From: Crambe crambe
Lineage: Eukaryota > Porifera > Demospongiae > Poecilosclerida > Crambeidae
Direction: 5' to 3'
NCBI GenBank assembly: GCA_963924555.1
Contig: OZ004586.1
Location: forward strand, 2,686,501 to 2,750,500
Length of the DNA stretch: 64,000 nt
This document shows positions 1-64,000 of this stretch, piece by piece (positions within the stretch are counted from its first letter, which is position 1; each line of letters begins with the position of its first letter). The notes beneath the pieces were generated by a model. The model did no database searches. It was not told where the DNA came from and worked only from the letters and a program-made list of their open reading frames with translations. Made by a program: the position numbers and the translations under genes.

Positions 1-73
1 TACACTGAAAATTGGTATAAAAGGACTTGCATAAACTATGTACAATAATGATTATTACGTATATATACTACAG

Positions 74-1470
74 CACCTACTGCTCCCCCATTCGACATAA
101 ACACTCCCACTACCACTTCCAGAGGTGTTAGTGTGTCCTGGTCAGAAATTGAATGCACTGAACGCAATGGTCCAATCACTAGCTACATTGTGGAATTTCA
201 AGAAGTGGAAGGGGTCATGATCCCTGGTCTGGTGGCCCATAGGACCTTCACAGCTAATGGGCTTTTCCCTTATACATATTACACCTTCAGAGTTGCTGGA
301 GTCAACGAAGTTGGCACTGGACCCTTTTCAAATAGAATCACTATTAGGATAGAAGGATCAGGAGCAAGTAATGATATTATTACAACAATACTCATCACTG
401 ATAGCTACGTAATTCCTATTATAGCTCCTGGTCCTGTTATTAACCTTGCTGGTACTGTTAAGTACACTTCCATTGTACTCACTTGGAGTCCTCCTATAGA
501 ACCTAATGGAGTCATCATCAGTTATGAAGTCACTTACACAGTCAATGGCACTGCTTTCAGAGTCAACACCTCAGAGTGGATAACTACACTTACTATCGAA
601 TCACTGACTCCAGAAACAATAGTCTCTGCTATTACAGTCACTGCTTTTACGGGAGCGGGTCGAGGAGAATCTGCTAATATACCTGATCAAACTACCTATG
701 CTGCACCAAGTGAGTCACTATGCCAATAATAGCTATAATATTCATGAATGTAATTTTTTCATTGACTAGCCAAGGTGTTTAATGTGCAGATTAAACCTGT
801 ATCTGATTCCTCAGTCAGAGTTAGCTGGCAGACCATAAAAACCATTGTGATTATGAACTATGTAGTTTACTACTCAAAGGAGGGAGAGGTTAATAAATCT
901 ATCATTGTTCCCAGCTCTACGGACTCCATTGTCATTGAAGATTTAAGTGAATCAAGTATCAATGATTACAAGTTTCAGATTGCTGCTTCAGCTAATATGA
1001 ATGGAGAATTTATCATGGGTGAAAGATCAGCTATGATATCATTGCCTTCATCCAACAACAACATATTTCAATGTAAGTGATGATACATAAAACTGTATAA
1101 GCTGTTTCATTTCTAATAATAGACACTTTAATTGGAGCTGTATTATTTTTTGTGGTGGGTGGGGTCGTTGGTCCTACCATCTTCATGATCTTATTTCTAC
1201 GCTGGATGAAGAGGTATGATTATAATTGTCACAATAACCAGCTAATGTTATGTAGCTACATTAATTTAATAGAAAATACGGGAAGCTGTAATAAAAAATT
1301 GAGGACAACTTTTGATAGATTCAAGGACATCTCACTCTAACTATAGCTATCTATAGCTAGAGCTAGTCTTTTCTTACAGCTAATTTCATAAAGCAACACA
1401 TCAATAATGATTTTCCATGTATGTATAGCTATGGTTACATAGGCTTGAACACATTCTGCCAGGAATATAA
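74..1470 (+). CDS. R1: 3' end of FN3-domain single-pass receptor (partial)
   Basis: The 5' part lies outside the window. Exons read as 74-367, 425-709, 770-1072 and 1123-1213, all joined in phase 1 except the last, which ends in phase 2. The first three each encode one FN3 domain; the first carries the family signature ECTERNGPITSY and a FRVAGVNE strand. The fourth encodes a TM helix (LIGAVLFFVVGGVVGP onward) ending in the basic WMKR. It would sit in the plasma membrane, with the FN3 domains outside. The tail is uncertain. A candidate last exon at 1443-1470 (tail RLEHILPGI, stop TAA) keeps frame, but its acceptor is weak; reading through the intron instead gives a stop at 1338-1340. It lacks the KKKRLHSKEK tail exon of R2. 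Ligand unknown. Confidence 0.75.
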
Positions 1471-1757
1471 TTTTTGAAAACAATTATTCTTATGGGGTGC
1501 ATGCATATGCATGCTATAGAGAAATTATTTCGAATATGGATACCAGTGCATGCACATTAATAGCTAGCTAGCTACTTACTGTAATTTTCCTGGATCAAAG
1601 ATGCAAGAATTTAGACTAGTGTCATGGTATCGTTATAGCTTCATCTGTATTCTGTTAATACAGTTAGCCAGGGCCCGCCCAGGGCCTACTATTTGCGCGT
1701 GCGCGACCCCAACATCAGATCGTAGAGGGGTCCCAGTTTCTTGAATCTCGTCTGGGT
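1471..1757. other. intergenic, no gene seen
   Basis: AT-rich spacer with TAGCTAGC runs. From about 1670 it becomes GC-rich (a GGCCCGCCCAGGGCC palindrome and a CGCGTGCGCG stretch), probably the promoter side of the small ORF that follows. Confidence 0.4.
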
Positions 1758-2180
1758 TTGGATGGTTTGGTGAAGAAGACCCTAGGGATGATGTGTTCTA
1801 CAGCTGAGCTGAAGAGTGAAGTGACTAATAGAGACATGGAACTGCTACTATCATCCTGTCAAGAGCACACGAGTACCAGAATAGCAGCTGCGGTTGCTAA
1901 AGAGTCTAGCTGGATAAAACTCTGGGACGCAGCCCTGGATAGAGGCACAGCCGGCACCACTGCCTTACAGAACCTGTATAGGGAGCTGACCAGGCCCTCA
2001 TATGGTTCCAGCCCTTGCCCTCGATGTGATGTGTCAGATTTGGAGGGCAATTCGTACTTTGAACACTATATCACAACTCACTCCTCCCTCATGAATGTGG
2101 ACAGGATCCTCTCTGCTCTGTCATCATCAGAACCTGACTTATCACTTGTTATAAATCATTTTTATGTTACACCTGAGTAG
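1758..2180 (+). CDS. Small single-exon protein with one C2H2-like zinc finger
   Basis: An uninterrupted 140-codon ORF. It contains a C-x2-C-x12-H-x4-H arrangement (CPRC followed by H..TTH) at about residues 87-108, which fits a C2H2 zinc-finger spacing. The N-terminal two thirds look helical and charged. I do not recognise the family. The codon usage is richer in G and C than the receptors around it and the preceding 80 bases are CpG-rich, which suggests an independent small gene or an inserted retrocopy. Upstream in-frame ATG codons are absent; a later start at 1788 is possible. A TGAT repeat (2250-2277) follows the stop. No TM segment or signal peptide is visible. It may bind nucleic acid or protein, but no function can be assigned. 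Confidence 0.55.
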   Translation: MDGLVKKTLGMMCSTAELKSEVTNRDMELLLSSCQEHTSTRIAAAVAKESSWIKLWDAALDRGTAGTTALQNLYRELTRPSYGSSPCPRCDVSDLEGNSYFEHYITTHSSLMNVDRILSALSSSEPDLSLVINHFYVTPE

Positions 2181-2249
2181 CCTCCCTCAGTCACTTGACA
2201 TTCTTTTTTCCCCGTTTATTTTGCATATGCCCTTTGGGCTTTACATTGC

Positions 2250-2475: not shown

Positions 2476-4729
2476 ATGTTGAATAGTGTATTTTTTCTAC
2501 TATATGGACTTGTGTCCACTCTCATATCAGTGCATAGTCAAGGTGAGTTATAGCTACGTAGTGAGCAAGGAATATTAACTATCAGTAATGCATGCATGCA
2601 TGGAACCATGTTCTAGCTATAATGTTGATGATGACAGTCCAAATTTAGCTCAACTGGCTTATTACTATACAGAGCAAGCTCCTACAGGTCTCACAGTTAG
2701 ACAGGTTGGGACAAGGAGTGTGAGAATCTCCTGGATACTACCTGCACAGAATAGTAGAAGTAGAAGTGGATACCGAATATCAACAAGTAGAGACTTTAGT
2801 GCTGGTATAACCGTAGCAACTGATGCAACTCATCGACTGATAGATCAGGCACCTGGTAGAGTTAACTACTGGCTAATTTCACTTTCCACACCTTCAATAA
2901 TGGTAGGACCTGTGACTGGCACTATAAGAGGTGAGGAATTCCAGAAATGTATTTTGTATGATTGTATGTATACAGTGTTGGTGTACTTTAAACAGATTTC
3001 AATATTCCAATAACGGTCACATTCTCACCAAATACCACATCTGTGACCATATTCTTGGCCCAACCTCCCTATAGTCTCTCAACGGATAAGTATAGGGTAA
3101 AACTGAGACAAGTAAGTGGTCCAAGGGATCCATGTCAAGTGATTGATTCAGATCACGACTCCAAGATTGTTATTGGTCCCAGAGTGGAATTTGATAACCT
3201 GATGATTTTCAGTACTTATAGTATAAATTTTACTGCTCTGTTATTAAGTGGATTTAATGTCACATTGAGGCTGACTGACACAAGCAGAGAGTTCACTACA
3301 CTGGCAGCTGGTATAGCTAACTATAACGATTGCACAACTGTATTAAACTAAGATATTTATTTACTTCAGTGCCTACTGACTCCCCATTTGAAGTAAACAC
3401 TCCCTCTATTACTTCTAGAAGTTTCAGTATATCCTGGACAGAAATTGAATGCACTGAACGTAATGGTCTGATCACTAACTACACAGTGGAATTCCAAGAA
3501 GAAGGAGGGGCTGTGATCCCTGGTGTGATTGTGAATAGGACCTTCACAGCTAGTGGACTCACTCCTTACACAAATTATACTTTCAGAGTTGCTGGAGTCA
3601 ATCAAGCTGGCACTGGGCCTTTTTCTGACACAACCAGTATTCTGACAGAAGAAGAAAGTACCTATAATTATTGTATATATGGCTCTAACTGTAGCAATGA
3701 TTTTAATTTTTGTAGCTCCTGGTCCCGTGTTTAACCTTGCTGGTACTCATAACTTTATCTCCATTATACTCACTTGGAATCCACCTCAAGAACCTTATGG
3801 AGTCATCATCAGTTATGAAGTCACTTACACAGTCGATGGCAGCAATACTGTCAGAGTCAACACCTCAGACTTGAGCACTACATTCACTATCCCATCATTG
3901 ACTCCACAAACAAGAGTCTCTGGTATAGCAGTCACTGCTTACACGAGAATTGGCAGAGGAGAACCTGCTAATCTTCGTGTGGAAACTACCTTCATGGCAC
4001 CATGTGAGTCTCTATATCATGCATGCATGCATGGAGTATGATCATCATTATAGTTTTTTCTTCCATTTTTAGCCAAGGTGATGAATGTGAGTGTTGAGTT
4101 TCTATCTTATTCCTCAGTCAGAGTCAGCTGGGAGAGTGTAAATAATATTATGATTATGAACTACATAGTGTATTACTCAAATGATGGAGCGATTAACGAG
4201 TCTGTCATTGTTCCCAGCTCTGTGAACACAGTTGTGATTGAAAATTTAACTGAATCAAGTCTCAGGTTTCAGGTAATTGCTACAACTGAAATTAATGGAG
4301 AAGTCATCATGGGAGAAAGGTCAGATGCAGTAAGATCAACAATGCCTCCTACAATTGCAACTGCAATAGCTACAATATCAGATCTTACTCAAGAGTCCAA
4401 AATTACCACTCCTACAGAGAGTAAGACTAGATGCGTTAACTATTATTAATAGTTGCTCATTTAGATATAATTTATAGCTACTACAAATGGAGGAATATTT
4501 GCTGTGGTTCCCGTGGTCATTTTTGGTATTCTTGTCATTATTGGAATTATATTTGGATTCTGGCTGAAGAGGTATGAGGGTATGAGTATTATTACAATGC
4601 TGCATGATGATAATAGGTAGACAAAGAGAATACATTGTGATAAGAAAGCTGATGAAATATTATCATAATAGGAAGAAAAAGAGATTGCACTCCAAGGAGA
4701 AAACTGAAGTGTATCACAAACATTATTGA
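2476..4729 (+). CDS. R2: five-FN3-domain receptor with short basic tail
   Basis: Complete gene model, 571 residues. Exons: 2476-2542, 2673-2930, 2996-3310, 3370-3657, 3716-4003, 4073-4420, 4478-4571, 4672-4729; frames and phases agree throughout. Residues 1-22 are a signal peptide ending near SVHSQ. Exons 2-6 each encode one FN3 or FN3-like domain; the N-terminal one has the family pattern VRQVGTRSVRISW and NYWLISL. Exon 7 is the TM helix (VVIFGILVIIGIIFGFW region) and exon 8 gives the tail KKRLHSKEKTEVYHKHY. The tail has two tyrosines but no ITIM. An AATAAA signal lies at 4819-4824. A plasma-membrane receptor or adhesion protein is likely; ligand unknown. A decayed copy of its 3' half lies at 8394-9649. 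Confidence 0.85.
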
Positions 4730-5123: not shown

Positions 5124-8115
5124 ATGTTGAATAGTGCATTATTATTATTTGGACTTGTGTCCACTTTCATATCAGTCTACAGTCAAGGTGGGTCCTAGCT
5201 ACATGCTTGCTATCTATAGCAAAGACATGAATTATCTTATTATCGTACAGAACGAGCTCCTACAAATCTCACAGTTAGACAAGTTGGGACAAGGAGTGTG
5301 AGAGTCTCCTTTATACTACCTGCACAGGAGGCTGCTAGTAGTAGGGGATATCAAATATCAACAAGTACAAACTTTGAGTATGGCATAAGAGTAGCACCTG
5401 GTGCATCTACTCGACTGGTAGGACAGGTACCTGGCAGAGTTAACTACTGGATAAGTTCTATTGCCACACCTGCAATAGTGGTAGGACCTGCTGTTGGCTT
5501 AGTAAGAGGTGAGGAAATGTATCAATATTAGTTAACATTGTAAGGCAAAGCGGGGCTAGCTATTTCGAATGGAGGGTAGTTCTGTATTGTGAAACTATAA
5601 GGCAAAGCGGGGCTATTTTGAACGGTGGGGCTATTCCGAAGGGTCAAATATTTTCAAAACTCCACGAGCTTACGAGCTCGATATATTCTACTATTATAGT
5701 AGATTATATCCTCCAACATTGAGCTCAGAAGTCTCAGAAATATTTGAACCTACGGAATAGCCCCCCTTTACCTTACTGAGACATCTGAGCTCAATGTCGG
5801 AGGATCTAACTATATCTTTCAAAATAGAGCTCATATAAGCTTTGAAAATATATGACTGTTCGGAATAGCCCTGCCATTCGGAATAAGGGCCCCCCGCTTT
5901 GCCTATAGTGGTAGTTATGTTAGCTAACATTGATATACTTTAATTAAACAGATTTCAGTGCTCCAATAAATGTCACACTCACATCACTGACTGCCACATC
6001 TGTGAGTATATCCTGGATCCAGCCTCCATACAGTCTTCCAATGGATGTGTATAAAGTAGAGCTGAGAGGTGAAACTAGTAGAGGTATTGGTGAGCTCTGT
6101 GCAGAGATGCAGGATTATGAATTCGCGGAAGTTACTGGTCAAACAGCAGGATTTACTAACCTTATGGCATTCAGTGTCTACACTATAACAATTACTGTTA
6201 TATCATTAAGTGATGGATTTACTCCTACTTTGAGACTAACTCGCAGTGGATTCACTACAATGGAAGCTGGTATGGCAAAGCATTATACCGAATATTGGGA
6301 CTCAATCTTTTGTCCTTTGTAGAGGAGTTATCCTTTTGATGAGGTATATAGCGTAAATCAAAGTATATATATTCTTAGAGTGTCCTTTTATTGAAAGTTT
6401 GTCCTCTTTCAGAGATAGATTTAAGACTCTTCATTTGTATTTTATACTTCAGCACCTACTGCTTCCCCAAATGTAAATGATCTTGATGCTACTCATAATG
6501 GTGTTACTTTATCCTGGGAACTTGATTGTTACAAACGCAATGGTCGAATCACTGGCTATATGGTGTCAGTCCAAGAAATGGGAGGGCGAATAATCACTTC
6601 GAGTTTGGTGGAAGATACGACCCTTGTGGTTAATGGACTCACTCCTGACACCAACTATGTTTTCAGTATTGCTGCAGTCAATAGTGCTGGCATTGGGCCC
6701 TATAATGCAACCTCTTTTTCAACACTGCCAAGAGTTACCGGTATAGCTAGCTGATTATAGAGTAATTAAGATTGTTACAATATCATTGACTGTTCCAACT
6801 TATAGGTCATAGTGGTCCTGTGTCTAACCTTGTTGGTATCCCCAAGTTCACTTCTATTTTGCTTACTTGGAGCCCGCCTCAAGAACCTAGAGGAATCGTC
6901 ATTGGCTATGCAATCACTTACAGAGTCAATAGCAGTAATATTGTCAGAGTCAACATCTCAGCCGTTACTACTATTACATTCACTATCTCATCGTTGACTC
7001 CACAAACAAGAGTCTCTGCTATTACAGTCGCTGCTTACACAAGAATAGGTCAAGGACAACCTGCTACTTTACCTGATCAGATTACCTTCACAGCACCAGG
7101 TGAGTCCACTATGCCAGCTATACAATGTAATTGGTTTTCCTCTCTAGGAGGTTACTTTACTTATTTTGTTGAGAGGTTTGTCCTCTTTCAGAGTGTCCTT
7201 TATCGGAGGTCACATTATGTATGCAATTTCCTTAGGCAAGGTGATGAATTTGCAGGTGGAGTCTTTATCTGATTCCTCAGTTAGAGTTTCCTGGAATAGA
7301 TTACCAGATAACTCTGCGGTTACTGTCTACACAGTTTACTACTATATTAGAACAAATGACGTGAAAGTAGTCACTGTTCCCAGCTCTGTGAATTCAGTTG
7401 TGATTGGAGATTTAACTGAACCAGAGTACCAGTTCCAGGTAGCTGCTACAGCTGAACGTAATAGAGAATTTATCATCGGTACAAGATCAGCAGTAACTTC
7501 ATTCAATTTGGCTTTTTTCAATCTTAGGACGCAGGGAACACAATCTGTCACGCAAAAAATTTATGGTAATAGATACTATGTATTAATGAATGTATAAGCT
7601 GCAACTGTAGTTTTTTTCCATTCCTGTAGCTGTAGAGCAAGTTGGACCGATAATTGGTGGAGTTTTGGCTGCAGGTGTTATTATTATTATTGTGATACTT
7701 GCCGTTATTCTTGTATTCTGGCTAAGAAGGTATACTATTATAAGGCAAAGTGGGCCTATTTCGAACGGTGGGTAATTCTGTATTGTTCAAATAATTATTT
7801 CTGAAACTACTGAGACTTCTGAGCTCACTATAATATAAATAGAGTTCATAAGCTTGAGGATTTTTGAAAGTATTTGACCCTTCGGAATAGCCCCACCGTT
7901 CGGAATAGCCCCGCTTTGTATACATTCTAAATAATTTTTATAGCTACATGACATTCAGTGTATTTTACATGGCTGTTATTTATATTAATAGGAGAAAGAA
8001 GGGTCAAAAGGATCTAAGTTCTACTAATTCGCCAACAATAATCAGACATGATGCTTCAGGGCAAATAATGGTTATTAGATCTAATGATTCAAGAAGCAAT
8101 TCATGTCCCCAATAA
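5124..8115 (+). CDS. R3: five-FN3-domain receptor with serine-rich tail
   Basis: Complete model, 591 residues. Exons: 5124-5187, 5251-5508, 5952-6269, 6453-6740, 6806-7099, 7236-7565, 7630-7729, 7992-8115. Signal peptide 1-21, then five FN3-like domains on phase 1-1 exons. A TM exon holds a very hydrophobic run (GVIIIIVILAVILVFW), followed by a basic, serine/asparagine-rich tail without tyrosine (RKKGQKDLSS ... RSNSCPQ). The fourth-exon FN3 (PTASPNVNDLDATHNG) is a different subtype from the equivalent exon of R2. Introns 2 and 7 each contain a copy of the same palindromic MITE (5541-5907 and 7741-7920). R4 is its close duplicate. A membrane receptor with no visible signalling motif; it might act as a decoy, adhesion or co-receptor molecule (inference). 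Confidence 0.85.
5541..5907. mobile_element. MITE with AAGGCAAAGCGGGGCT termini (R3 intron 2)
   Basis: The left end AAGGCAAAGCGGGGCT is matched by an inverted right end (CCCCGCTTTGCCT). Internal motifs TTCGAACGG and CCGTTCGGAATAGCC are also inverted. A second left end at about 5597 suggests a nested or duplicated copy. Relatives: 7741-7920, 15941-16115 and the remnant 62392-62505. No coding capacity, so non-autonomous. Confidence 0.75.
7741..7920. mobile_element. MITE, same family (R3 intron 7)
   Basis: Shorter 180-bp copy between the R3 TM and tail exons, with AAGGCAAAG and GCCCCGCTTTG ends and the same inverted internal motifs. Confidence 0.75.
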
Positions 8116-8393: not shown

Positions 8394-9649
8394 GGATAAG
8401 TATCGAGACAAGTAAGTGGTGCAAGGGATCCATGTCAAGTGATTCACGACTCCAAGATTGTTATCAGAGCTGCTGGAGTCAATCAAGCTGGCACTGGGCC
8501 TTTTTCTGACACAACCAGTATTCTGACAGAAGAAGAAAGTAGCTACCTAATTATTGTATTTATGGCTCTAACTGTAGTAATGATTTTAATTTTTGTACGT
8601 AGCTCCTGGTCCCATGTTTAACCTTGTTGGTACTCATATAATTTTATCTCCATTACACTCACTTGGAATCCACCTCAAGAACCTTATGAAGTCATCATCA
8701 GTTATGAAGTCACTTACACAGTCGATGGCAGCAATAAGTCAACACCTCAGACTTGAGCACTACATTCACTATCCCATCATTGACTCCACAAACAAGAGTC
8801 TCTGGTATAGCAGTCACTGCTTACACGAGAATTGGCAGAGGAGAACGTGCTAATCTTCGTGTGGAGACTCCATGTGAGTCTCTATATCATGCATGCATGC
8901 ATGGAGTATGATCATCATTATAGTTTTTTCTTCCATTTTTAGCCAAGGTGATGAATGTGAGTGTTGAGTTTCTATCTGATTCCTCAGTCAGAGTCAGCTG
9001 GGAGAGTGTAAACAATATTATGATTATGAACTACGTACATAGTGTATTACTCAAATGATGGAGCAATTTACGAGTCTGTCATTGTTCCCAGCTCTGTGAA
9101 CACAGTTGTGATTGAAAATTTAGCTGAATCAAGTCTCAGGTTTCAGGTAATTGATACAGCTGAAATTAATGGAGAAGTCATCATGGGAGAAAGGTCAGAT
9201 GCAGTAAGATCAACAATGCCTCCTACAACTATGTCAATTGCAACTATAAATATGACAATATCAGATTCTACTCAAGAGTCCAAAATTACCCACTCCTACA
9301 GAGAGTAAGACTAGATGCGTTAACTATAACTTGATAGTTGCTCATTAGATATAATTTATAGCTACTACAAATGGAAGAATATTCGCTGTGGTTCCCGTGG
9401 TCATTTTTGGTATTCTTGTCATTATTGGAATAATAATTATTGGATTCTGGCTGAAGAGGTACGAGGGTATAAATATCATCACAATGCTGTATGCTGACAT
9501 AATGATAATAATAGGCAGATAAAGAGAATACATTATGATAAGAAATCTAAAAGAATCATTCTTGATACATAATTATATTATTATAATATAGGAAGAAAAA
9601 GAGATTGTGCTCCAAGGAGAAAACTCAAGTGTATCACAAACATTTTTGA
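8394..9649 (+). pseudogene. Truncated, frame-broken copy of the 3' half of R2
   Basis: Begins inside an R2-like third exon. About 8465 that exon is joined by a deletion to the last third of the fourth exon. Recognisable later parts: 8603-8873, 8943-9304, TM 9362-9458 and tail 9592-9649. Against R2, the 8603 exon has a 2-base insertion near 8640 and a 7-base deletion near 8740, and the next exon has a 4-base insertion near 9034, so the frame is lost several times. There is no signal peptide exon. It is a segmental duplication remnant lying between R3 and R4. Confidence 0.85.
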
Positions 9650-13000: not shown

Positions 13001-13465
13001 AATGGAGAATTTATCATCACAAGATCAGCAGTAACTTCGTTCAATTTGAATCTTAGGACGCAGGGAACGCAATCTGTCACGCAAAAAATTTATGGTAATA
13101 GTATTAATGAATGTATAAGCTGAAACTGTAGCAATTTTTCCATTCCTGTAGCTGTAGAGCAATTTGTACCGATAATTGGTGGAGTTTTGGCTGCAGGTGT
13201 TATTGCTATTGTGATACTTGCAGTTATTCTTGTATTCTGGCTAAGGTATTATAATTATACATTCTAAAATAATATTTTAAAGCTACATGACATTCAGTGT
13301 ATAGTTTACATGGGTGTTATTCATATTAATAGGAGAAAGAAGGGTCAAAAGGATCTAAGATCTACTAATTCGCCAACAATAGTCAGACATGATGCTTCGG
13401 GGCAAATAATGGCTATTAGATCTAATGATTCCCCAATACCTGCCCAGCCTGGGCCCACTGACTAA
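10045..13465 (+). CDS. R4: five-FN3-domain receptor, duplicate of R3 with altered tail
   Basis: Complete model, 589 residues. Exons: 10045-10108, 10171-10428, 10509-10826, 11726-12016, 12095-12388, 12777-13094, 13152-13245, 13333-13465. Same plan as R3 (signal peptide, five FN3-like domains, one TM). The TM exon is two codons shorter. In the tail exon a deletion after IRSNDS removes the R3 stop and shifts reading into former 3' UTR, giving a new proline-rich end (SPIPAQPGPTD, stop at 13463). Intron 3 holds about 700 bases of extra palindromic repeats absent from R3. High similarity to R3 in introns as well as exons points to a recent duplication. Plasma-membrane location expected; ligand unknown. 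Confidence 0.85.
11023..11276. repeat. Inverted-repeat element in R4 intron 3
   Basis: CTACACAATGAAAAATC plus ACAACTTGTAA at the left is mirrored by TTACAAGTTGTAG plus ATTTTTCGCTGTGTAG at the right, about 250 bases apart, with repeated ACAGGTC/GACCTG motifs inside. It looks like a MITE; absent from the matching R3 intron. Confidence 0.6.
11488..11640. repeat. Palindromic element in R4 intron 3
   Basis: GCTTATTGCATAC..., TTGAATATCA and ATTACTACCC at the left are mirrored by GGGTAGTAAT, TGATATTCAA and GTGCAATAAG at the right, with GGCCTACGGCC near the centre. Another MITE-like insertion not found in R3. Confidence 0.6.
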
Positions 13466-47973: not shown

Positions 47974-48149
47974 GTAGCTATTATTGTCTGGCATACAAAT
48001 AATGTCTATCCTGATAAAAATTTCAGATATGTAGCTAGTAAGTATTTCTTCCAAATTTCATCCAACTTTAGAAAATTTATTCAGTCCATTATGATCACTT
48101 TTTTCAACCAAAATTAGCTATTTTAGGTAGCAATTTATCTATTCATATT

Positions 48150-52569: not shown

Positions 52570-53250
52570 TAACATTTAAACATGTGTTACAACTGTTACA
52601 GTAGTTGGTATAACAATTTTAGATATGTAGCTAAGCAATGTATTATGATCTTTACCAAACAGTGGAGAGTGCTATTTAGTGCAGACTTCATGATATTTCC
52701 TTTTGCATACTACGTATTACTATTACAATCTGACTACACTGTCTTATGATTGCATCTGCATAATCACCTAGCTAGTACACAAGTCCCACTGCCTCTCATG
52801 TATAGATGCATGTATACCATAGTCATTTACAGTATAATACATACCACATCATGTCTTCACTGCTTATTTGGAGATATTATTGTGCAGACCTAGCTACATA
52901 GCTATACTTTCATGCCAATCAATCAATCAATCACCTACCCTAACAGGAAATCACATGACTGACACATCCTGTGGTTATTCATGTAGCTACATGTGTCATT
53001 TGTTTGCTGGCTATAGCTGATAGCTACTATAATTAGCTATGGCTAATAGTTTGAGACTTATAAGTTGTTATAACAGTAACCATATAATAGTTCATAGCTT
53101 CTTTTAAAAAATGATCCATGGATTCTGTTGGTTTTATAGACAGCTATTCAGTTGTGGCTAGATAGAATGGGCATACTAAATTTAATCTCTTCTTTAAGCA
53201 ACTATGACTATGTAAGTTGTGCACCCACACACAATTAGCTATCTATCATG
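52570..53250. other. R9 3' flank / intergenic
   Basis: AT-rich; no exon recognised. A lone AACAGGAAATCACATG motif is at about 52943. Confidence 0.5.
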
Positions 53251-53426: not shown

Positions 53427-56400
53427 ATGAATAGTGTACTACCTCTAACTCTTGGACTTGTGTCCACACTCTCATTTGTACTGAATCAAGGTGAGTGCTT
53501 ATAAAGACTCAGCAACTAGCCATTAATTTTAAACTACTTTAAAAAATCCATGATGATGATTCAGAAGATTTTACTCACACAGAGATCTTTGATCAATTAT
53601 TGTTCCTATATATATATAGCCACATACAATCCTCATGCATGGAATAAGACTAGGAGTGGGAAGTTAGCTACCAAGAATGATTAGTAGTGTATACTATGTC
53701 TGTATGCAGAACAAGCTCCTACTAACCTCATGGTTAAACAGATTGGGATGGGAAGAGTGAGAGTCTCCTGGACACCACCAACCCCCCCTCCTAGTAGATA
53801 CCTAATAACAACAGGTGACACAAGACCAACAGACTCCAGTGCTGGCATAATGGTAGTTTTTGGAGCATATAGTCGTGATGTAGGACAGGCACCTGGTACT
53901 ACAGTTACTTACTGGCTGGTTGCACTTTATAGGACTCCAATAGTAGTAGGACCTGTGAGTTACACTGTAAGAGGTGAGGGAATGTAACTTATTATGTACA
54001 ATCAGTAACTAATGAGTGTTCTATCAGATATCAGCACACCGATAAGTATCACTTTCTCATCACTGACTGCCTCATCTGTGACCATATCCTGGACCCAGCC
54101 TCCATTCAGTCTCCCAATGGATGAGTATAGAGTAGACCTGAGACGAGTAACTGGTGCAAGGCAGTTGTGTGCAATGGTCAATAATAATAAGTCCAAGATG
54201 ACTACTGGTACTTCAACAGTAAATTTTTCTAACCTACATGAATTCAGTATTTACAGTGTAACAATTACTGTTACATTACCAAGTGGATTTACTGCTACTC
54301 TGACACCAACTGTAGAGTTCACTACAAAGGCAGCTGGTATGACCATACACTGAAATCACATAGCTAGCTAATAACAATGCTAATGGTTTGTTCTGCTGCA
54401 GTACCTACTGCTCCCCCACGCAGCATAAACAGTCCCTCTATCACCTCCAGAAGTGTTAGTGTGTCCTGGTCGAAAATTGAATGCATCAAACGCAATGGTC
54501 CAATCACTAAGTACACAGTGGAATTCCAAGAAGTGGGAGGGGCTCCGATCCCTGGTGTGGTGGTGAATAGGATCTTCACAGCTAGTGGACTCACTCCTTA
54601 CACAAACTACACCTTCAGAGTTGCTGGAGTCAATAACAATGGCACTGGACCTTTTTCTGATGTAACCAGTATTCTGACAGAAGAAGAAGGTAATCATAAC
54701 TACATAACTGTAACAACAATCTTAGTGTCTTTTATGTGTAGCTCCTGGTCCTGTGTCTAACCTTGCTGGTACTCCTAAGTTCACTTCCATTGTACTCACT
54801 TGGAGTCCTCCTCAAGAATCTAATGGGGTCATCATCAGTTATGAAGTCACTTACACAGTCAATGGCAACAATACTGTCAGAGTTAACACCTCAGACTTGA
54901 GCACTACATTCACTATCCCATCATTGACTCCACAAACAAGAGTCTCTGATATTACAGTCACTGCTTACACAAGAATAGGTCAAGGAGAACCTGCTAATTT
55001 GCCTAATCAGACTACACTTGAGTTACGTGAGTTATTTCCTCTGCATACCTCATTATTATAATGATTGCTGCCACTTGCAGCTGTAGTGATGAATGTCATG
55101 GTGGAGATGTTGTCTAATACTTCAGTTAATATTTCATGGGAAAGTATAGACACTTCAGAGCTCATAATAAGCTACAGAGTCTACTACTACTATAATCAAC
55201 CTGGAAATATGGATGCCTTTGTCAATGCTTTTAATAACTCTATTGTTATCAATAATCTGACGAGTAATGTGGAGTACTTGTTTTATGTGGTGGTTATTGC
55301 TGAAGTTGATGGGCAGACATTTACTGGACAAAGATCAATGACTGTAATGATTGGGGCTGTGCCTGAATGTATGTTACGTTACTAAAATGATTCATGATTT
55401 GCTCATAATAATTATGATTAACAAAATTAATGTTCTTAATTTTTTAGCTCCTACATCACCATCTACAACATCATCTTCTGGCAGTGCAATATCTGGAATC
55501 ATAGTAGGAGTAATACTCCTGATCATTAGTGTTGCCATAGTAACTGTACTGGCAGGATTTGGGTTTATAAGGTAAACTAGAACTACAATGTTGTATCAGT
55601 ATTTATAAAATTATTATTGTAGAAGACAAGATGAAAAATCTGACAAGAATATTGCAGTAGGATGTGCAAAACCAAGACCAACTATAGTAGCCATACTGGA
55701 GCATACTTCAGGTAATGAAGGGTTAATTAACAGTTCATAATGACAGTCATGAAATTACCTACAGGACCAAAGATTGAAAGTTTTCCTATGGACAGAATTT
55801 TAGTGGAGGGTGAAGGTGTGTCATTCAAGCCAGTAGTTAGGGGAGACCCAGAACCAATACTCACATGGTACCATGGAGGAAATGAATTGATATCCGATTA
55901 CTCCCTTGAGATCCAACCTGACGGCACTCTAGTGATAGCCTCAGCTGAGCTCAGACACAATGGAGTGTATAAGTTATCGGCAAGGAACAGCAGTGGTGTA
56001 GCTGAAAGAGAGCTCAGGCTTACTGTCCAACAGGAAGGTGAGGAGATAAATGCTCCCTCAAAGGAGAGTATAGAGGTTGACTTCACAGCTGTACCAGTGG
56101 CTGACTTTGGGGATTATGTGGCAAAGAACCATTCCCAGTCAGATGCAGGGTTTAGAAAACTGTACGAAGTAAGTTCAGAGTGATTATGTGTAACTAATTA
56201 TGCATGTTGTCAGTCTATTCTGACACATGAAATTGCATATGCACACTCTTAGTCTGAATCACATCTTCAAGCTCAGATTTCAGGATCAATTTTGATGAAT
56301 ATGCACTGTCAATCTTAGAGTCTTGATAGTGGTGATGAGCATCCTAAAACTGTTGGACTCTGCAAAGAAAACAAGAAATTGAATCGATTTGTTAATATCA

Positions 56401-59400
56401 CTGTGTGTAAGTGATTAGTGTATAGCTACAAGCCTTATCATTTTCAAGATGCTATTTATCACATGTAGATGACCATAATCGTATAAAACTTAATGCCCTA
56501 CCAGAGTATGAAGATTGTCAGAGAGAATTCATCAATGCCTGCTATGTCAATGTAAAGAAGTCTCAATCCATGCATGATATGTGATCTTAGCAATGTAGCT
56601 AGCCACACACAGTATAGTTAGTAATTGTTCTGTTATAGGGGTATTCACAGCTGCAAAGATTCATAACAACTCAAGGTATTCCTCAATACATGACTTGTTG
56701 AAGCATCAATATTTGTGATCTCCACTGTGTTAATTGTGCAGGTCCTAAAGATCGCACACTTGTTGATTTTTGGAGACTAGTTTGGCAGGAGAGACCTCTA
56801 ACCATAGTCATGGTAACCAACATCAAGGAAGGTAACAAGGTTAAATGCCAGCAGTATTGGCCAGACAGTGGAAGCAAGAATTATGGTCCCTTCAAGGTTA
56901 CCCTGGAGGAATACCAGGTGTTTGCTGACTATGTCATCAGGACACTGCAAGTTACTGTGAGGCATGCTATTATCTAATACATACAAATGAACATGGTCTT
57001 TCTATGCAGTTAGAAGGCAGTTCTGCAAGTCGTCCTTGGAAACTGAAGCAGTTTCACTTCACGTCCTGGCCTGATCATGGAGTGCCTGAATATGCCACTT
57101 CAATGTTGTCCTTTCATCGCAGGATCCTCTCACAGCACAAGAGCAGAAGAGGCCCCATGGTAGTACACTGCAGGTAAACATTCATGACATACGTACATGA
57201 TATTTTGGGGGCCAGAGACTTGCTATGGGGAATTTTAATAAATACGAAAGCCAGCATCTAAAGAACTGCATGTTTTTGAGTTCTTTTAGAGCCATTAAGA
57301 AGGTTTTGACAATAGTTAAACACATTCAGCAATAAACAGCTACATAGTATATCTAAAGAGTTAGGTACTTAAGGTTGTTCATTTAGTAAATGGCATTGTG
57401 TTTGTGTCTTACTGTATAGAAAATAGTGTACATGAGAAAAAAACGTAGCTACGTTAGCTGATCTACATCATGTAGTGTTTGAGTGAACTGGTACATTCAT
57501 CTGTATTGACTATCATAACATTAAATATGAGTGCTTGTACAGTACATTCATCTGCATTGACTATATTACGTACAGTGCTGGAGTGGGGAGAACTGGTACA
57601 TTCATATGTATTGATATTGTTCTTGAACAAGTCAAGAAGGAAAACAAAGTGGACATTGCAGGGACCATCAATAAATTGAGGCATCAGCGCATGAAGATGG
57701 TCCAGACTCCAGTAAGGAAGTATAGCTGCTGTCATCATAGTTCCAGTAAAGGTGCTGTTATTAGATAATCCAATAAGGATTTTGTCCTTAGTAGCTCTTA
57801 GAATTTGACAATCATGCAAATGATTACAGGGCAATTAAGAATTATAACCTCCTCTTCTTGCCCATACAGGAGCAGTTCATTTTCATCCATGATGCTATCT
57901 TGGAGTCAGTGATGTGTGGGGACACTGAGATAAATGCCACTAACCTCAGATCCACACTGATGAAGATGAACAGGAAGAACAACTCGACTAAGCTTGAGAC
58001 ACAATTCAAGGTTCAGAGAGAGTTCTTGACTATACAAGACCAAACCAATGTTGCCTCGTTTGCAGGTGTTGGATCTTGTATCACCTAAACAGAGTGATGT
58101 CATATGCACTGCTGCACTTCAACACTCAGATAAGAATCGCCTCAAAGATTTCCTACCTCGTAATTATTTAACACGTAACTGTAATACAATGTGACGTATA
58201 ATTCTTCACATGTCCACAGCTGATAAGTACCGTGTGATTCTGAGTGGAGAGTATCCTGACTACATACATGCTGTTGCTGCCAATGTAAGCTCATTAACTT
58301 CATTATACTGAAGTATGCAACAGATGCTAGTTTTATCTCATTTTGGAATTTCATATCAATAATTGTTGCTTTTTTGGCTTTTATAAAGATGCTTTCACAA
58401 GTCTAGTTTCCAAACATGCTAAGTTACAGCACACTAATAATATATTAACTATCCACCACATGCTATTGAAGGTTCTGTTGCATGCACTTCATGATCTTAC
58501 ACACTATTATGTGCATGCAGGCCTACAAGCAAAAGAAGGCTTATATCATAGCAGAGGGTCCAATGTCCTCCACCATCAGAAACATGTGGAAAGTCATCTG
58601 TGATAGGAAGTGTGGGGCAGTCATCATGTTATCCAACCTTATTGAGAATGGAATGGTATGTGCACATGTATGTACGTAGTCGTATTTATAGTGTGTATCA
58701 GAGAGTGCGGTAGCACTCTCTAAGTAGGGATGGCAGGTCAAAGTCCATAGGACAGTATAAACTAAAAACTCTTCTTTCTCTTCTACCCTTACTCTACAGG
58801 TTCTCAGAAGGCTACAGTGAATTATTATATCTACAAAGAAGAGAGGAGAATGTTCAAAAGCCAAAAATTCATTCGCCAACATAAGAAAAAAACGAGTTCT
58901 AAAATTGACTTTTCGTTCTTTTTCTTTATAATCAGAGAGTGCGGTAGCACTCTCTAAGTAGGGATGGCAGGTCAAAGTCCATAGGACAGTATAAACTAAA
59001 AACTCTTCTTTCTCTTCTACCCTTACTCTACAGGTTCTCAGAAGGCTACAGTGAATTATTATATCTACAAAGAAGAGAGGAGAATGTTCAAAAGCCAAAA
59101 ATTCATTCGCCAACATAAGAAAAAAACGAGTTCTAAAATTGACTTTTCGTTCTTTTTCTTTATAATAATAATAATAATAATAATAATAAGGATAATAATA
59201 ATAATAAGATCGACGTACCGACTTACTGGCTATAGTCATCAAAATTCTGCTTTGGCCATCTGTTAGAGCGGCACCTAGAGGCTGATCTTTTGCTATTAGT
59301 TTTGACTAAGGCTCTACTTCACTATTCGATAGCACTCGGAACACAGCTGCTAATCTTTCTACGCCATTTTGAAGGGGGCGGGGCTTATGGGCGGAGCCAC

Positions 59401-61837
59401 GTAAGCTTAAGTTTAGCTATAGCCAAGGTCTTCATTCATTATCTGATGATGTTCCAGTCACTCCTTGCTGAATTACAGTACAGATGCTCATCCTATAGTA
59501 GCATTATAGCCAGTACTGTAGTGTAGTCAGCTCACTTCACCATGCCGTGTACATGTCATTTACATTGCTGTTGCTGTAAAGTTTTATATCAACAAAACTT
59601 AAATAGCTAAACAAATTCTTCAACCAGAGACACTGTATGTACCTACAAAAGAGGTTTATGTAGAGCTGGCTTTGTATAGTACTGTACTGTAGCCTCCCTC
59701 ATTCAACTTCAAGCACTAAGAAAAAGGATAGAAACAAGTGAGCGTAAAAAATTTCTTCAAATAAAAAGGTTAAGTAGGGATAGCCTAAAATCTAGCTGGG
59801 CTATCTATAATGTGCTGCAGCCTCGTATGAAAAAAATCTTCGCGATATTACCTCATAAAAGGGGTGGGGCAATTAATAGCAGTTCTCCTCATATAGCTAA
59901 CACCTGCACAGGATGTGGCCATTTGATGGCATCCACTATTATGATCACTACACCAAATGCATAAACTCCCCATACTCCTCCCTCAAGCAAGACATACGTA
60001 CCATCTCAATAATTATTTCAGTGATCACATATGTAACAATTAGCTAATGCTGTTCACTTTTTAAAATGTTCACTCCTTTCAGTACTCCATTACACTGCAG
60101 ATGATCATCCTTCAAACTCTCCTCCCTGAACAGAATGAAATACTGATCATTAAATAAATTTAGTTCAATCAAGGAAGCCTTTAGTGTCTGTCAATTTTCA
60201 TAATCACAAAGAAAAAGAATGCAAACAAGTGAATGCAAAAAATTTCTTCGAAATAAAAATGTGAAGTAGGGATGCTATTATAACTGCAGCTTCATTATGA
60301 AAACCAAGTACTGCAGCATCGAAGCAGTATGGCCCAAAAATCTAGCTGGAATATGTATTATAACTGCATGCAAGAGAGTGAACTTAGTGAAGTGACCCTT
60401 ACCCATCATCAAGTACAAGATACTATTCCTACTTCACTCCCATGATCAAGGGCCAAGGGAGTGAAGTAGGAATAGTATCTCGTACTTGATGATGGGTAAG
60501 GGTCACTTCACTAAGTTCACTCTCTTGCATGCAGTTATAATACATATTCCAGCTAGATTTTTGGGCCATACTGCTTCGATGCTGCAGTACTTGGTTTTCA
60601 TAATGAAGCTGCAGTTATAATAGCATCCCTACTTCACATTTTTATTTCGAAGAAATTTTTTGCATTCACTTGTACTACTTATAATTCATAGTAACTAGCT
60701 ACGTATTAGCTATGCCTAAAGAATGTGAATTTTACTACATTAATGAAGTGCAGTGATTATCTACTGTATGATGCTAAGTAGGGGAAATTTCTTTGCAATG
60801 TATGCATAAGTAATAGCATAAGTAATAGCTATCGACATGGCCACTTAGCTACACATGTGATCATGACATCTGATAAACAATTTACAGGAGAGTAGTTGTC
60901 AGTACTGGCCAGCAGTGGAAGGGGAAATGTCTCAATTTGGGGAGTTCAAAGTGGATCTTATTAATCAGGAGGAGTTGAGTGGGTTCACCATCAGGACACT
61001 TGACATCTTACAATATAAGGTAGCTATTATTGTCTGGCATACAAACCATGTCTATCCTGATAAAAATTTCAGATATGTAGTAAGTATTTCTTCAAAATTT
61101 CAGTATTTGGATCCAACTTTAGAAAATTTATTCATTTCTTGCAACCAAAATTTATCTATTCATACTAGACCAAAAAGACCCACCAAGTGATTCAGTTCCA
61201 CATCACATGCTGGAGACCAGATGGAGTGTGTTCCAACCTTAAGAGTGTGGTGGATGTCGTGGAGGAGCTCTCCAAAATCCAGAGGAAGACAGGAAACAAA
61301 CCTGTAATCATACACTGCAGGTACAGCCAATCACACTATAACAATGATCATAATTTTATAACTCAACCTTTACCAAAAGATAGAATTGGTAAGGGATATC
61401 ATTAATGTATAAAAATTCTTGCAGTCAGCACTGTATTATGTAGCTAGCCAATGGACATACTTTTTGTTATTGTTGTTGTGGTTATCAATGCTGTTGTTGA
61501 TAATGATAGCTAATGTTGTTGGCTCAATTCTCTTGATATCTTGATATATAGTGACACTGTGACCAGGAGTGGAATGTTCTGTGCCATAGCCACCATCATT
61601 GATCGATGCAAGGCAGAAGGAGTGGTGGATGTCTTCCAAGTGGTCAAAGCTCTCCGTGTCCAGAAACCAGGGGCTGTGCCCACTCTGGTGAGTTGTACTG
61701 TAGGAAGATGTCTTGCTATGTAGCTCTTTATGGAAATACAATCATTCATTATGCAGGCAAATTACAAGACCTTATTTGATGCCACACTTATATTCTTGGA
61801 CTCATTTGATACTTATGCCAATTTTCAAAATATTTAG
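53427..61837 (+). CDS. R10: receptor tyrosine phosphatase, FN3 x5 - TM - Ig - PTP - PTP
   Basis: Complete model, 1257 residues, all phases consistent. Exons: 53427-53490, 53710-53973, 54028-54336, 54402-54689, 54742-55026, 55081-55368, 55448-55571, 55623-55711, 55765-56168, 56319-56406, 56469-56551, 56639-56675, 56742-56956, 57010-57173, 57576-57711, 57870-58010, 58066-58159, 58220-58284, 58521-58655, 60888-61019, 61169-61320, 61552-61687, 61757-61837. Signal peptide, five FN3-type domains, TM about 500-541 ([19 protein letters not shown]), cysteine-free I-set Ig 571-705, D1 with WPDHGVP and [10 protein letters not shown] (Cys900), D2 with [10 protein letters not shown] (Cys1185). D1 should be an active phosphotyrosine phosphatase. 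NACYVD of the other copies is NACYVN here. The 2.2-kb intron 58656-60887 carries several repeats. Best intact representative of the RPTP type in the window. Confidence 0.9.
58698..59165. repeat. Two 234-bp direct tandem repeats in R10 intron
   Basis: Copies 58698-58931 and 58932-59165 look identical. Each starts TCAGAGAGTGCGGTAGCACT followed by CTCTAAGTAGGGATGG, a hairpin module also at 32079. A minus-strand ORF of 233 codons across it is only this duplication read in a free frame. Confidence 0.9.
59162..59207. repeat. (AAT)n microsatellite
   Basis: About 15 imperfect AAT units directly after the 234-bp tandem repeat. Confidence 0.9.
60225..60673. repeat. 217-bp inverted repeat with about 15-bp loop in R10 intron
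   Basis: The arms 60225-60441 and 60457-60673 are equal in length and complementary with about one mismatch (ACAAG against CTCGT near the centre). Contains GTAGGGATGC and its complement. It lies within the primary transcript of R10, so a long hairpin RNA is expected if the intron is transcribed. Confidence 0.9.
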
Positions 61838-62084
61838 CTAATGCATTTAGCTGGGTAGTTGGTTACTCATGTACCTAACTATACATGTTGTTTGTTTGTT
61901 TGTTGCAAAGGATGAATTGATTCTATCCATATTATTAGAAGATACTAAGGACCCCATGTGAGGTCACAATGCTGTTACGTATTTATCAGGGACATTAGAG
62001 ATGTTGAGGCCGGTGAGACTAGCCTCACCACTTTGTGGGGACAATTATAATAAGCCAAAATTTCCCTCTAACTCCTAGCTCCTA
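61838..62084. other. R10 3' flank
   Basis: Duplicated flank shared with R6 and R8 (GGGACATTAGAGATGTTGAG and CACTTTGTGGGGACAATTAT). Homology breaks off near 62075, where the next pseudogene begins. Confidence 0.5.
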
Positions 62085-62745
62085 CAAAGCTCCTACAAAT
62101 CTCACAGTTAGACAAGTTGGGACAAGGAGTTTGAGAGTCTCCTTTATCTACCTGCACAGGAGGCTGCTAGTAGTAGGGGATATCGAATATCAACAAGTAC
62201 AAACTTTGAGTATGGCATAGGAGTAGCACCTGGTGCATCTACTCGACTGGTAGGACAGGTACGTACCTGGTAGAGTTAACTACTGGATAAGTTCAATTGC
62301 CACACCTGCAATAGTGGTAGGACCTGCTGTTGTCTTAATTAGTAAGAGGTGAGGAAATGTATCAATATTAGTTAGTTGTAAGCAGGTAATTCCGTATTGT
62401 GAGACTTCTGAGCTCAATGTTGGAGGATCTAACTATAGCTAATAATATATCATTCGAAATAGTTTGAAAATATATGACCGTTCGGAATAGCCCTGCTTTG
62501 CCTATAGTAGTAGTTAGTAGCAATGTTAACAATAGTAGCTAACATTGGTACTTCAGATCTCAATACTTCAATAAATGCCACGCTCACATCACTGACTGCC
62601 ACATCTGTGAGTATATCCTGGATCCAGCCTCTATACAGTCTTCCAACAGATAAAGTAGAGCTGAGAGGTGAGGTATTGGTGAGCTCTGTGCAGAGATGCA
62701 GGATTATTAATTTGTGGAAGTTACCGGTCAAACAGCAAACCTAAT
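62085..62745 (+). pseudogene. Fragment of an R3/R4-type receptor (first two domain exons)
   Basis: 62085-62350 matches R3 exon 2 with a 1-base loss (about 62142), a 4-base gain (GTAC near 62262) and a further insertion near 62337. A MITE remnant follows (62392-62505, same site as the R3 intron 2 MITE). 62557-62745 matches exon 3 but is cut off and has internal losses. No signal peptide or TM exon. Confidence 0.85.
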
Positions 62746-63638
62746 TGATCAAATGTCACTAAGAATGCAGTGGAATTAACTGATAAATGTCACTCCAAAA
62801 TAGGATAAACCTCTCAAGAAGTACACCCTAAGTTTGTATATGCAATAACCTCCAAAAGAGGAAAGATAACCTCAAAAAGAGGAAAGAACAAAGGGCTTGG
62901 TCCCAAGTGTGTACAGGTTCTACTGTATGACTTTCAAAGAAGTACTATGTAACTATGTAGCTCCTGCTAGAGGTATAATGGCCTAATTGTTTATCATACT
63001 TATTCGCAGCACATGCTGAAGTTATACGTAGCTAGTTAGTGATACAACAGGTACAGAGTAGCTACTTATACCACTTTCTAGTACCAAAATCTCACTGCAT
63101 GGGAATAAGCTTAAGGTTAACCAGTTAACCACGTGGTTCTATTATAATTTATATAGTTGATGTGTCACATGATCATTAGATCAGGAAGTGGCCCATAGAG
63201 CATCAAGGTGGGGTGATCAGGTACAGTGGTGTGATCATAAGGTGCTAGCTCCAGCTAGCTTATTACGCTTATGATAATTATAAGATTTTCACATGGACTA
63301 TTTGTAGAGCTATAATACGCATGAAACTCTATAAATAACAAATAACTCAGTTGCAACTTCAATTCCTTATCAACTCATAAGGACCAATACTATTATAGCT
63401 AAGGATCTAGACATGCACTGTAAATAATTTTGTAAAAGCAACATACCCATTTTTTAGGTTTCCCAATTTGCAAACTGGGTTGTCACATTTTTTTTATAGT
63501 GCATGTGACTCTGTGGGTTAATATAACCCACAGAGACACACCCCTAAATATACACCGTGTATTGTGACTTTCCGCTTTATTTCAGCTACCTAGTGCATGA
63601 ATATTGTTAGTCTCTTACATGTTCACCACCAGGGGGCC
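62746..63638. other. intergenic, duplicated from the 14985-17518 region
   Basis: Follows the order of the sequence upstream of R5 with deletions: AATGCAGTGGAATTAA, CCCAAGTGTGTACAGGTTC, GTGGGGTGATCAGGTACAGT, then the promoter block (63532-63638). No gene seen. Confidence 0.65.
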
Positions 63639-64000
63639 ATGTTGAAGAGCAGCATACTACTAGTGGTGATGCTATGTCTAGTATCAACTCTTATCATGTC
63701 AGTGCAGAGTCAAGGTGAGTGCTGTATTAGCTAATAGCTATGTCTCCAATTTAACTAACAATATTCCACAAAATAGTTTTATGCTCTATGTGCTATAGCT
63801 ATGTAGTCATAAGGGGAAGATGACAGTGTAGGCCATTAGGAAGGAAACACAGCTGCATAGAGTTTTTGCCCCAAGGGAAGGCATCACTGTAGATGTTAAT
63901 CTTTTAAAAAGACTAGGAATGCCTCGGCACTTAAGTGCAACCTTTAACTTTCTAAATTTGGCTTATTTTAAATGCTTTACAGTGAATATGACAGTGGTAT
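63639..64000 (+). CDS. R11: first exon of an R5-like receptor (continues beyond window)
   Basis: The signal-peptide exon 63639-63714 (25 codons plus one base) ends at CAAG|GTGAGT. It differs from the R5 first exon by only two or three residues (for example LCLVST for LCIVST). The intron start also matches R5. Later exons lie outside; by homology an R5-type receptor is expected. Confidence 0.75.

Follow-up and report, generated by a model that had tools for sequence, protein, structure and literature searches.

A tandem array of candidate recognition receptors with fibronectin type III ectodomains and unlike cytoplasmic tails in the sponge Crambe crambe

The receptor array and the genes of the window

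The window analysed here, a stretch of 64,000 nucleotides from the sponge Crambe crambe (contig OZ004586.1, hereafter C9, positions 2686501-2750500; the assembly has 119 contigs and totals 143 Mb), forms part of a receptor array that spans about 1.19 Mb of C9. The genes of the array encode ectodomains built from five classes of fibronectin type III (FN3) exon, in the order D-E-A-B-C, followed by a transmembrane (TM) exon and by unlike cytoplasmic tails, some with two protein tyrosine phosphatase (PTP) domains and others with short tyrosine motifs. We favor, with a probability of roughly 0.6, the view that these genes form a multigene complex of fast-diversifying type I recognition receptors, with the variable domain D outside and phosphotyrosine signalling inside.

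When the class B FN3 exon of gene 10 was compared with the whole assembly (best 150 of 560 candidates scored), at least 115 matches fell on C9 between 2,338,840 and 3,526,410 at 70-100% identity, at least 28 on contig C13 at 52-61% identity, and at least 7 elsewhere (three on C19, two on C1, and one each on C11 and C16). After merging of B copies less than 700 bp apart, C9 holds at least 106 class B FN3 units, arranged in a minus-strand block at 2.338-2.456 Mb, a plus-strand block at 2.617-3.055 Mb, and a second minus-strand block at 3.071-3.526 Mb. Our full reading covers 344 kb (C9 2,326,501-2,526,500, to the left of the window, and 2,666,501-2,810,500, which includes it), and gene numbers are our own count over these 344 kb, the window genes being 2 to 11. 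Hidden Markov models made from the window exons find a constant exon order in 42 units (signal peptide, D-E-A-B-C, TM exon, tail), with D present in one to a few copies per unit and part of the units being fragments. Because the same order recurs in 42 units, in two strand blocks, and in the one C13 gene that was read, the observation exceeds chance. All five FN3 classes are open at 80% or more of their length in 26 genes, with near-duplicates 38 and 41 set aside.

Ten units overlap the window, nine beginning inside it and one (gene 2) coming in from the left, in agreement with an earlier note that had counted at least nine related plus-strand genes. Genes 2, 3, 4, 6, 7, and 10 keep all five FN3 classes open, with D and E of gene 2 lying left of the window; four units are damaged, gene 8 by a frame-broken D and genes 5, 9, and 11 by being broken altogether. 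The features, in window coordinates, are:

73..1290, plus strand: gene 2, FN3 exons A, B, and C, TM exon, short tail RKYGKL
2476..4727, plus strand: gene 3, signal peptide, D-E-A-B-C, TM exon, basic short tail with VYHKHY end
5250..8114, plus strand: gene 4, D-E-A-B-C, TM exon, tyrosine-free tail RRKKGQKDLSSTNSPTII..; signal-peptide exon with GTGGG donor immediately upstream
8439..9200, plus strand: gene 5, a broken relative of gene 3, pieces of A-B-C only
10170..13024, plus strand: gene 6, D-E-A-B-C, near gene 4 in sequence, TM exon next; the tail exon is probably near 16.2 kb
17519..22399, plus strand: gene 7, signal peptide 17519-17594, four D exons, E-A-B-C, TM exon 21632-21785
21852-21896 and 22303-22399, plus strand: tail of gene 7, an exon of immunoreceptor tyrosine-based inhibitory motif (ITIM) type, IIYDTI, and an end exon with AAYDYV
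22983..29710, plus strand: gene 8, signal peptide, frame-broken D, E-A-B-C, TM exon, juxtamembrane exon, first and second PTP domains (D1 and D2)
25187-25591, plus strand: cytoplasmic immunoglobulin (Ig) domain of gene 8
38485..44168, plus strand: Ig-PTP-PTP tail, no FN3 exons of the array family ahead of it
45372..47980, plus strand: partial PTP tail, one stop within a D1 exon, last D2 exons not found
50055..52570, plus strand: gene 9, damaged E, A, split B, truncated C, TM exon 51928-52050; tail with ITIM-type VQYETV exon and end exon with AAYGHV; ectodomain a near twin of gene 10
53427..61840, plus strand: gene 10, signal peptide 53427-53490, D 53710-53973, E 54028-54336, A 54402-54689, B 54742-55026, C 55081-55368, TM exon 55448-55571, juxtamembrane exon 55623-55711
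55765-56168, 56319-58010, and on to about 61.8 kb, plus strand: cytoplasmic part of gene 10, Ig, PTP D1 exons, and PTP D2 exons, respectively
62086..62711, plus strand: gene 11, broken D, truncated E

Exon structure, domain D, and tails

Full-length FN3 exons of the 42 units almost always begin and end in phase 1 (acceptor and donor, respectively: D 43/43 and 43/43; E 32/32 and 32/32; A 35/36 and 36/36; B 35/36 and 36/36; C 36/36 and 34/36), as counted by a permissive search near domain ends, without shuffled control, from which 41 partial hits were excluded; in other exon sets, those covering under 80% of the profile were dropped before counting. The phase 1-1 FN3 exons described in the earlier note are thus near-universal, while its signal-peptide exon common to at least nine genes is an overcount by about three: within the window the exon is found in genes 3, 7, 8, and 10, with a GTGAG donor, and in genes 4 and 6, with a GTGGG donor. 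Over the 42 units, a signal-peptide exon with a GTGA or GTAA donor is found in 31, of which the case of gene 13, 4.8 kb away, looks spurious. The proposed exit of the TM exon in phase 2 holds, on hand reading, for genes 3, 4, 7, and 10 and for one left-block tail. TM exons come in several kinds, one in most phosphatase genes, another in tyrosine-tail genes (66 matches at E ≤0.01, 52 of them on C9), and others in genes 0-6.

Exons A, B, C, and E pass the Pfam fn3 cut-off; D, with E 0.0016, falls short of it. The predicted structure of D has a mean predicted local distance difference test score (pLDDT) of 91 and seven strands, most resembles FN3 domains or FN3-derived binders among solved structures (best E 6e-4), and points to an FN3-like fold.

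Five kinds of tail occur in the window, bearing out the claim of at least four cytoplasmic ends: RKYGKL (gene 2); the basic tail with VYHKHY (gene 3; VYHKHF in broken gene 5); RRKKGQKDL.. (genes 4 and 6); tyrosine-motif tails (genes 7 and 9); and Ig-PTP-PTP tails, which are joined to FN3 gene models in genes 8 and 10, as had been supposed, and also occur as the two tails without an FN3 gene. Over the whole reading we found 27 tyrosine end exons, 19 of them with AAYGHV; 21 of the 27 tails carry a C-terminal YDNI, YDNF, or YNNI (13 KLYDNI, 4 KVYDNF, 3 KVYDNI, and 1 KVYNNI), one more carries RIYNDI, and the pooled dN/dS of the end exon is 0.39, which places the tyrosine tails under purifying selection. 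Since the search pattern itself demanded an AAY or VAY tyrosine, the first tyrosine of all 27 end exons is not independent evidence; 2 of the 29 tyrosine-tail units (14 and 17) were missed by it. The ITIM consensus, [IVLS]xYxx[ILV], is matched only by an extra exon in genes 7 (IIYDTI), 12 (VIYDTI), 9, 17, and 18 (VQYETV), and 20 (VYYETV), to which the label ITIM-like used by the earlier note should be confined; the commoner AAYGHV and YDNI lie outside the strict consensus, and left-block tails that have these alone fail it. No kinase tail was seen in the array among the best 121 of 1944 kinase candidates scored. An SH2-SH2-PTP arrangement lies elsewhere in the genome, at C18 6,539,084-6,540,942 (best 150 of 601 PTP candidates).

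The phosphatase tail and its cytoplasmic Ig domain

The phosphatase-tailed genes have the architecture of receptor-type tandem PTPs, with a signal peptide, one TM segment, D1 motifs, and D2 exons. All eight tails of the core stretch carry the D1 motifs WPDHGVP and HC..AG[VI]GRTG, so that D1 is active-site-complete and a predicted phosphatase. D2 retains the cysteine and arginine in all eight and is probably inactive, because it reads DT[VA]TRSG, without the usual glycines. By sequence, the closest solved structures to the PTP region are PTPRS, PTPRF, and PTPR-alpha (E 1e-135 to 2e-134).

The Ig domain is of the I-set type (Pfam E 5e-16 and 2e-14). In the spliced model of gene 10 the only two hydrophobic stretches are the signal peptide and one TM segment, and the Ig follows the TM segment and precedes PTP D1; by position, therefore, the Ig is predicted to be cytoplasmic. 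An extracellular Ig followed by a second TM segment was considered and dropped, there being no second hydrophobic stretch beyond the TM exon. Cysteine is absent from all seven Ig sequences; the structural model has 71 of 135 residues at pLDDT ≥90, with one end disordered, and among solved structures it best matches Ig domains of Robo1, titin, and MLCK. We know of no other receptor phosphatase with an intracellular Ig. Phosphatases of the LAR type (R2A) have extracellular Ig domains followed by FN3 domains, and the array genes do not fit that class, their sole Ig being intracellular and only FN3 classes D-E-A-B-C lying outside. Nor do they fit the R3 class, described as having extracellular FN3 repeats and one PTP domain in the cytoplasm (PMC5336234, in the part of the text available), as there are two PTP domains here.

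Selection on the outermost domain

Codon models fitted by exon class to the paralogues in the 344 kb read from this one genome give omega values of 1.27 for D, 0.76 for E, 0.77 for A, 0.67 for B, and 0.55 for C, the value for D fitting 3.3 log units better than omega 1 (P ~0.01). Model M2a improves on M1a (own implementation, fixed IQ-TREE trees) with 2ΔlnL of 117.6 for D, 30.7 for A, 14.4 for B, 11.3 for E, and 0.6 for C, and the positive class in D has omega 3.2 and 20% of sites, 15 of 91 sites exceeding 0.95. When genes 0-6 are excluded, D has omega 1.37, 2ΔlnL 90.8, and 12 sites, with 2ΔlnL of 17.5, 17.3, 8.0, and 0.0 for A, B, E, and C. A tree-free test on 20 disjoint closest D pairs counts 413.7 non-synonymous and 108.3 synonymous differences (pN/pS 1.31, binomial P 0.005), and pN/pS of E, A, B, and C is 0.57-0.70 (D versus E+A+B+C, Fisher 1.5e-8). 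In the phosphatase genes alone, dN/dS is 1.34 for D (4 genes with intact D), 0.90 for A, 0.78 for E, 0.49 for C, and 0.45 for B; for the PTP exons it is 0.16 (7 tails, one without an FN3 gene; 21 pairs; 0.21 by maximum likelihood). Purifying selection on all ectodomains, which the earlier note would have counted against itself, is not what the FN3 exons show, and the recognition role it proposed is favored by diversifying selection on D.

Placed on the strands of the predicted D structure, the selected sites would fall in i) the AB turn and start of strand B (15, 16); ii) the BC loop (25, 26, 27, 30); iii) the C-C′ loop (45) and C′ (49, 51); iv) strand E (56, 58, 60) and the EF turn (62); and v) the FG loop (75) and strand G (85).

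Evolution of the array

Trees of the five FN3 exons reject one another in 20 of 20 comparisons (approximately unbiased test, P ≤0.002; 26 genes, 38 and 41 excluded). Because every exon tree is rejected by the alignments of the other exons, the ectodomains are mosaics, and this pattern indicates exon-wise recombination or conversion in the array, as the earlier note had suggested of conversion. Neighboring genes may also share an outside and differ inside, again as foreseen: adjacent genes 9 and 10, with tyrosine and phosphatase tails, respectively, are 93-95% identical from E to C, and adjacent genes 18 (tyrosine) and 19 (phosphatase) have 97, 98, and 95% identity in D, A, and B, respectively; their alignment of 3.2 kb, with introns and upstream DNA included, is 86% identical. 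Other neighbors (7/8, 12/13, and 15/16) are less similar, at 79-87% across most of the ectodomain.

That the tails are interchangeable, in the sense of unlike tails on alike outsides, is borne out by these pairs; the left block suggests a different history for its short tails. There, decayed PTP exons lie 0.5-2.7 kb downstream of 14 of 21 short-tail genes, with 28 hits in the sense orientation and none antisense, and because of these sense-strand remnants the left-block short tails look like truncated phosphatase receptors; the truncation events must be fewer than 14, since several of the genes are recent duplicates of each other. The same remnants rule out import of tails by exon shuffling as a general account, although import may hold in the core block, where none of 14 short-tail genes has decayed PTP exons downstream. 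The Ig tail is absent from all 20 left-block units. Near-identical stretches also occur in the left block, one of 9.1 kb at 99.0% and others at 95-99%, and genes 28 and 38 are about 100% identical in five exons. The simplest history, we infer, would begin with a receptor of the form FN3-TM-tyrosine-Ig-PTP-PTP, its descendant copies then retaining either of the two outputs.

A second, diverged array occupies C13 at 3.1-4.6 Mb, with at least 28 B-type and 14 Ig-type matches. The C13 gene read (3740001-3750000) has D-E-A-B-C, then a frame with LHYDTI, which fits the ITIM consensus, and then Ig and PTP D1; an Ig-like frame lies at 1540-1923 of the same stretch.

A proposed mechanism

Our reading starts from the gene order, exon mosaicism, selection contrast, tail anatomy, and decayed PTP exons, all of which are directly observed. 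Each receptor would display five FN3 domains, the outermost of which, D (sometimes repeated), would be the variable ligand-contacting module, the inner four serving mainly as scaffold. One TM helix would link binding to phosphotyrosine signalling by two main routes: a phosphatase tail, comprising the cytoplasmic Ig, an active-site-complete and putatively active PTP D1, and a D2 of degenerate sequence; or a short tail whose conserved tyrosines, part of them in motifs that match the ITIM consensus, might be phosphorylated and bind SH2-domain partners. Ligand contact might gather the receptors, whereupon tyrosine tails would recruit SH2 proteins and phosphatase tails would strip phosphate, possibly off the tyrosine tails of look-alike neighbors. 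By analogy with paired receptors, neighbors that look alike outside and differ inside could recognize the same surface, or a similar one, with opposing outputs. The array would turn over as units duplicate in tandem, single exons recombine or undergo conversion, and phosphatase receptors are truncated to short-tailed forms.

We wish to stress several points that weigh against this reading of a diversifying recognition complex. It rests on 344 kb of the 1.19 Mb, taken from the first minus-strand block and the plus-strand block only. In the plus block the alternation of tail types is weak (28 of 43 neighbors, shuffle P 0.04), and in the minus block there is none (20 of 41 neighbors, P 0.67; of 46 Ig matches on C9, four short partial ones were excluded), so that pairing is not a general rule; the same test rejects a strict succession of short-tail and phosphatase genes, pair after pair, throughout the array. 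Variation extends beyond D, since a positive class, though a weaker one, is present in A, B, and E as well (2ΔlnL 30.7, 14.4, and 11.3, as above). Recombination, which is seen here, can inflate site-model tests, and the pairwise tests, while less exposed, are still open to alignment error in the indel-rich loops of D. Finally, the near-identical stretches may be true duplications or assembly duplicates (uncollapsed haplotypes).

Alternative explanations

One could suppose that these are ordinary LAR-like adhesion phosphatases, merely expanded and with constraint relaxed outside, as the affinity of the PTP region for PTPRS, PTPRF, and PTPR-alpha among solved structures and the many damaged copies might suggest. 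Relaxation, however, moves omega towards 1 and not past it; D exceeds 1 by three approaches, adjacent FN3 exons of the same genes stand at 0.55-0.77, and we therefore regard this explanation as quite unlikely. Still less probable, in our estimation, is a cell-identity code in which receptors differ between cells for self-avoidance or sorting. A large tandem array of a single architecture would suit such a code, whose analogue is the clustered protocadherins with their shared constant exons; most units here have their own signal-peptide exon, unlike those shared exons, and a code of this kind does not need diversifying selection.

If the array does consist of diversifying recognition receptors, its likely uses are self/non-self or microbe recognition, and the evidence fits both alike. 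As a histocompatibility locus, with D reading polymorphic self markers or binding D and the tails setting fusion or rejection, the array would join other allorecognition complexes in being clustered, variable, and duplicating, with conserved signalling and some ITIM-type tails, and its genes are indeed clustered with, in this one genome, diversifying selection on recognition domain D. Specific graft rejection in sponges has been ascribed to a polymorphic genetic system (PMC5450542), and the unrelated allorecognition receptors of Hydractinia and Botryllus share ITIM-type signalling (PMC12065747), both according to the available parts of these papers; the main text of a sponge graft transcriptome paper contains none of the words ‘receptor’, ‘fibronectin’, or ‘phosphatase’, and microbe recognition predicts an identical genomic pattern. 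We hold allorecognition as a tentative possibility, and with equal reserve the recognition of microbes or symbionts, in which D would bind variable microbial surfaces and the tails would tune phagocytosis or tolerance in a filter feeder. The same variability and signalling evidence speaks for microbes, as do the large innate receptor families reported from sponges (PMC10855680 and PMC6208332, as far as their accessible text goes), and nothing favors a microbial over a self ligand. More specific, and in our view rather unlikely, is the proposal that the array is the genetic basis of sponge self/non-self recognition, its variable FN3 domain reading the surface of a neighbor, in which tyrosine-tailed and phosphatase-tailed receptors have look-alike outsides and a phosphatase receptor, gathered by the same ligand, directly dephosphorylates its tyrosine-tailed partner and so sets a threshold for rejection. 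The array is in any case a candidate for how an animal separates self from non-self or friend from foe, and, as a bounded interval of C9 with named exons, makes the old question of sponge self/non-self recognition directly testable.

Relation to known systems

Among phosphatases, LAR-type PTPRS and PTPRF resemble the array receptors in tandem PTP domains, active D1 motifs, and FN3 domains outside, and differ in being few conserved genes rather than about a hundred variable units, the array having in addition the cytoplasmic Ig and degenerate D2. Among vertebrate paired immune receptors, KIR and LILR share similar outsides with unlike insides, fast turnover, and ITIMs in some tails; they differ in having the Ig fold and no built-in phosphatase, and their activating partners work through adaptors and a charged residue in the TM segment, an arrangement not seen in the array. 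Hydractinia alr likewise comprises clustered polymorphic receptors of an early-branching animal, here with Ig-like ectodomains and, unlike the array, mapped through crosses and graft tests. Its tails are of ITIM or ITAM (immunoreceptor tyrosine-based activation motif) type (PMC12065747).

According to the same source, as far as its available text goes, the Botryllus fester and fester co-receptor families are also large and variable, with ITIM or core YxxI/L/V tails and paired expression of neighbors; they differ in having Ig and Sushi domains instead of FN3, a built-in phosphatase is not described in that text, and their allorecognition role has genetic and functional proof. Closest of all to the array is the avian Trojan family (Mystran, Trojan, and Thracian; PMC4372362), whose neighboring genes, in the part of the paper available, have alike FN3-bearing outsides and unlike insides (tandem PTP, short tail, and tyrosine-motif tail), with positive selection mainly outside and a conserved phosphatase tail, as in the array. 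The family consists of only three genes on chicken chromosome Z, with CCP domains ahead of two FN3 domains and ITAM rather than ITIM-type motifs, and no cytoplasmic Ig is mentioned in that part of the paper.

In sponges, the Amphimedon queenslandica genome is reported to show a stronger enrichment of fibronectin domains than the transcriptomes of three other haplosclerids (PMC4704026), one R3-type phosphatase has been described from the same species (PMC5336234), and a 2017 graft study describes specific rejection and a polymorphic genetic system with the receptors unnamed (PMC5450542), in each case in the portion of text available. No description of the array was found in the open-access full-text literature, a scope that mostly leaves subscription papers outside. 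As far as searched, then, this variable-receptor design is undescribed: FN3 takes the place of Ig outside, many members contain a phosphatase of their own, an Ig without cysteines sits between the membrane and that phosphatase, and phosphatase receptors can be seen decaying into short forms with tyrosine tails.

Other features of the window and genome

Within gene 8, about five tandem copies of a 53-bp unit at 27194-27455 repeat the acceptor and start of the PTP D1 active-site exon, and may be a splicing decoy, because use of an upstream acceptor copy would destroy the D1 active site. A D2 intron of gene 10 contains repeats at 58688-60674, made up of two identical 234-bp units and a segment with arms that recur at C9 2.36 and 2.50 Mb in both orientations at 97-99% identity; this is probably a recent foldback-type mobile element. 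An unlike receptor-like gene lies within the array at 34884-37365, with an FN3 exon at 35398-35715 (Pfam E 5e-8), one frame without a Pfam match, and a frame at 37003-37365 with several hydrophobic stretches. Two further open frames have no Pfam match: one of 367 amino acids at 48461-49564, charged, coiled-coil-like, and perhaps gag-like, and one of 170 amino acids at 1668-2180, between genes 2 and 3, perhaps a mobile-element fragment.

Searches for plasmid, tRNA, and Rfam matches gave nothing informative. Elsewhere on C9, ten B-class FN3 domains follow one another at about 450-bp spacing at 3075241-3079569, the sole such run among the C9 B matches listed. Dense clusters of PTP domains are present on C12 at 0.07-0.38 and 2.5-3.2 Mb (best 150 of 601 candidates). 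A Calx-beta match lies inside one open frame of 10,128 codons at C9:4224783, and Calx-beta arrays on C10 and C3 are reminiscent of aggregation-factor genes.

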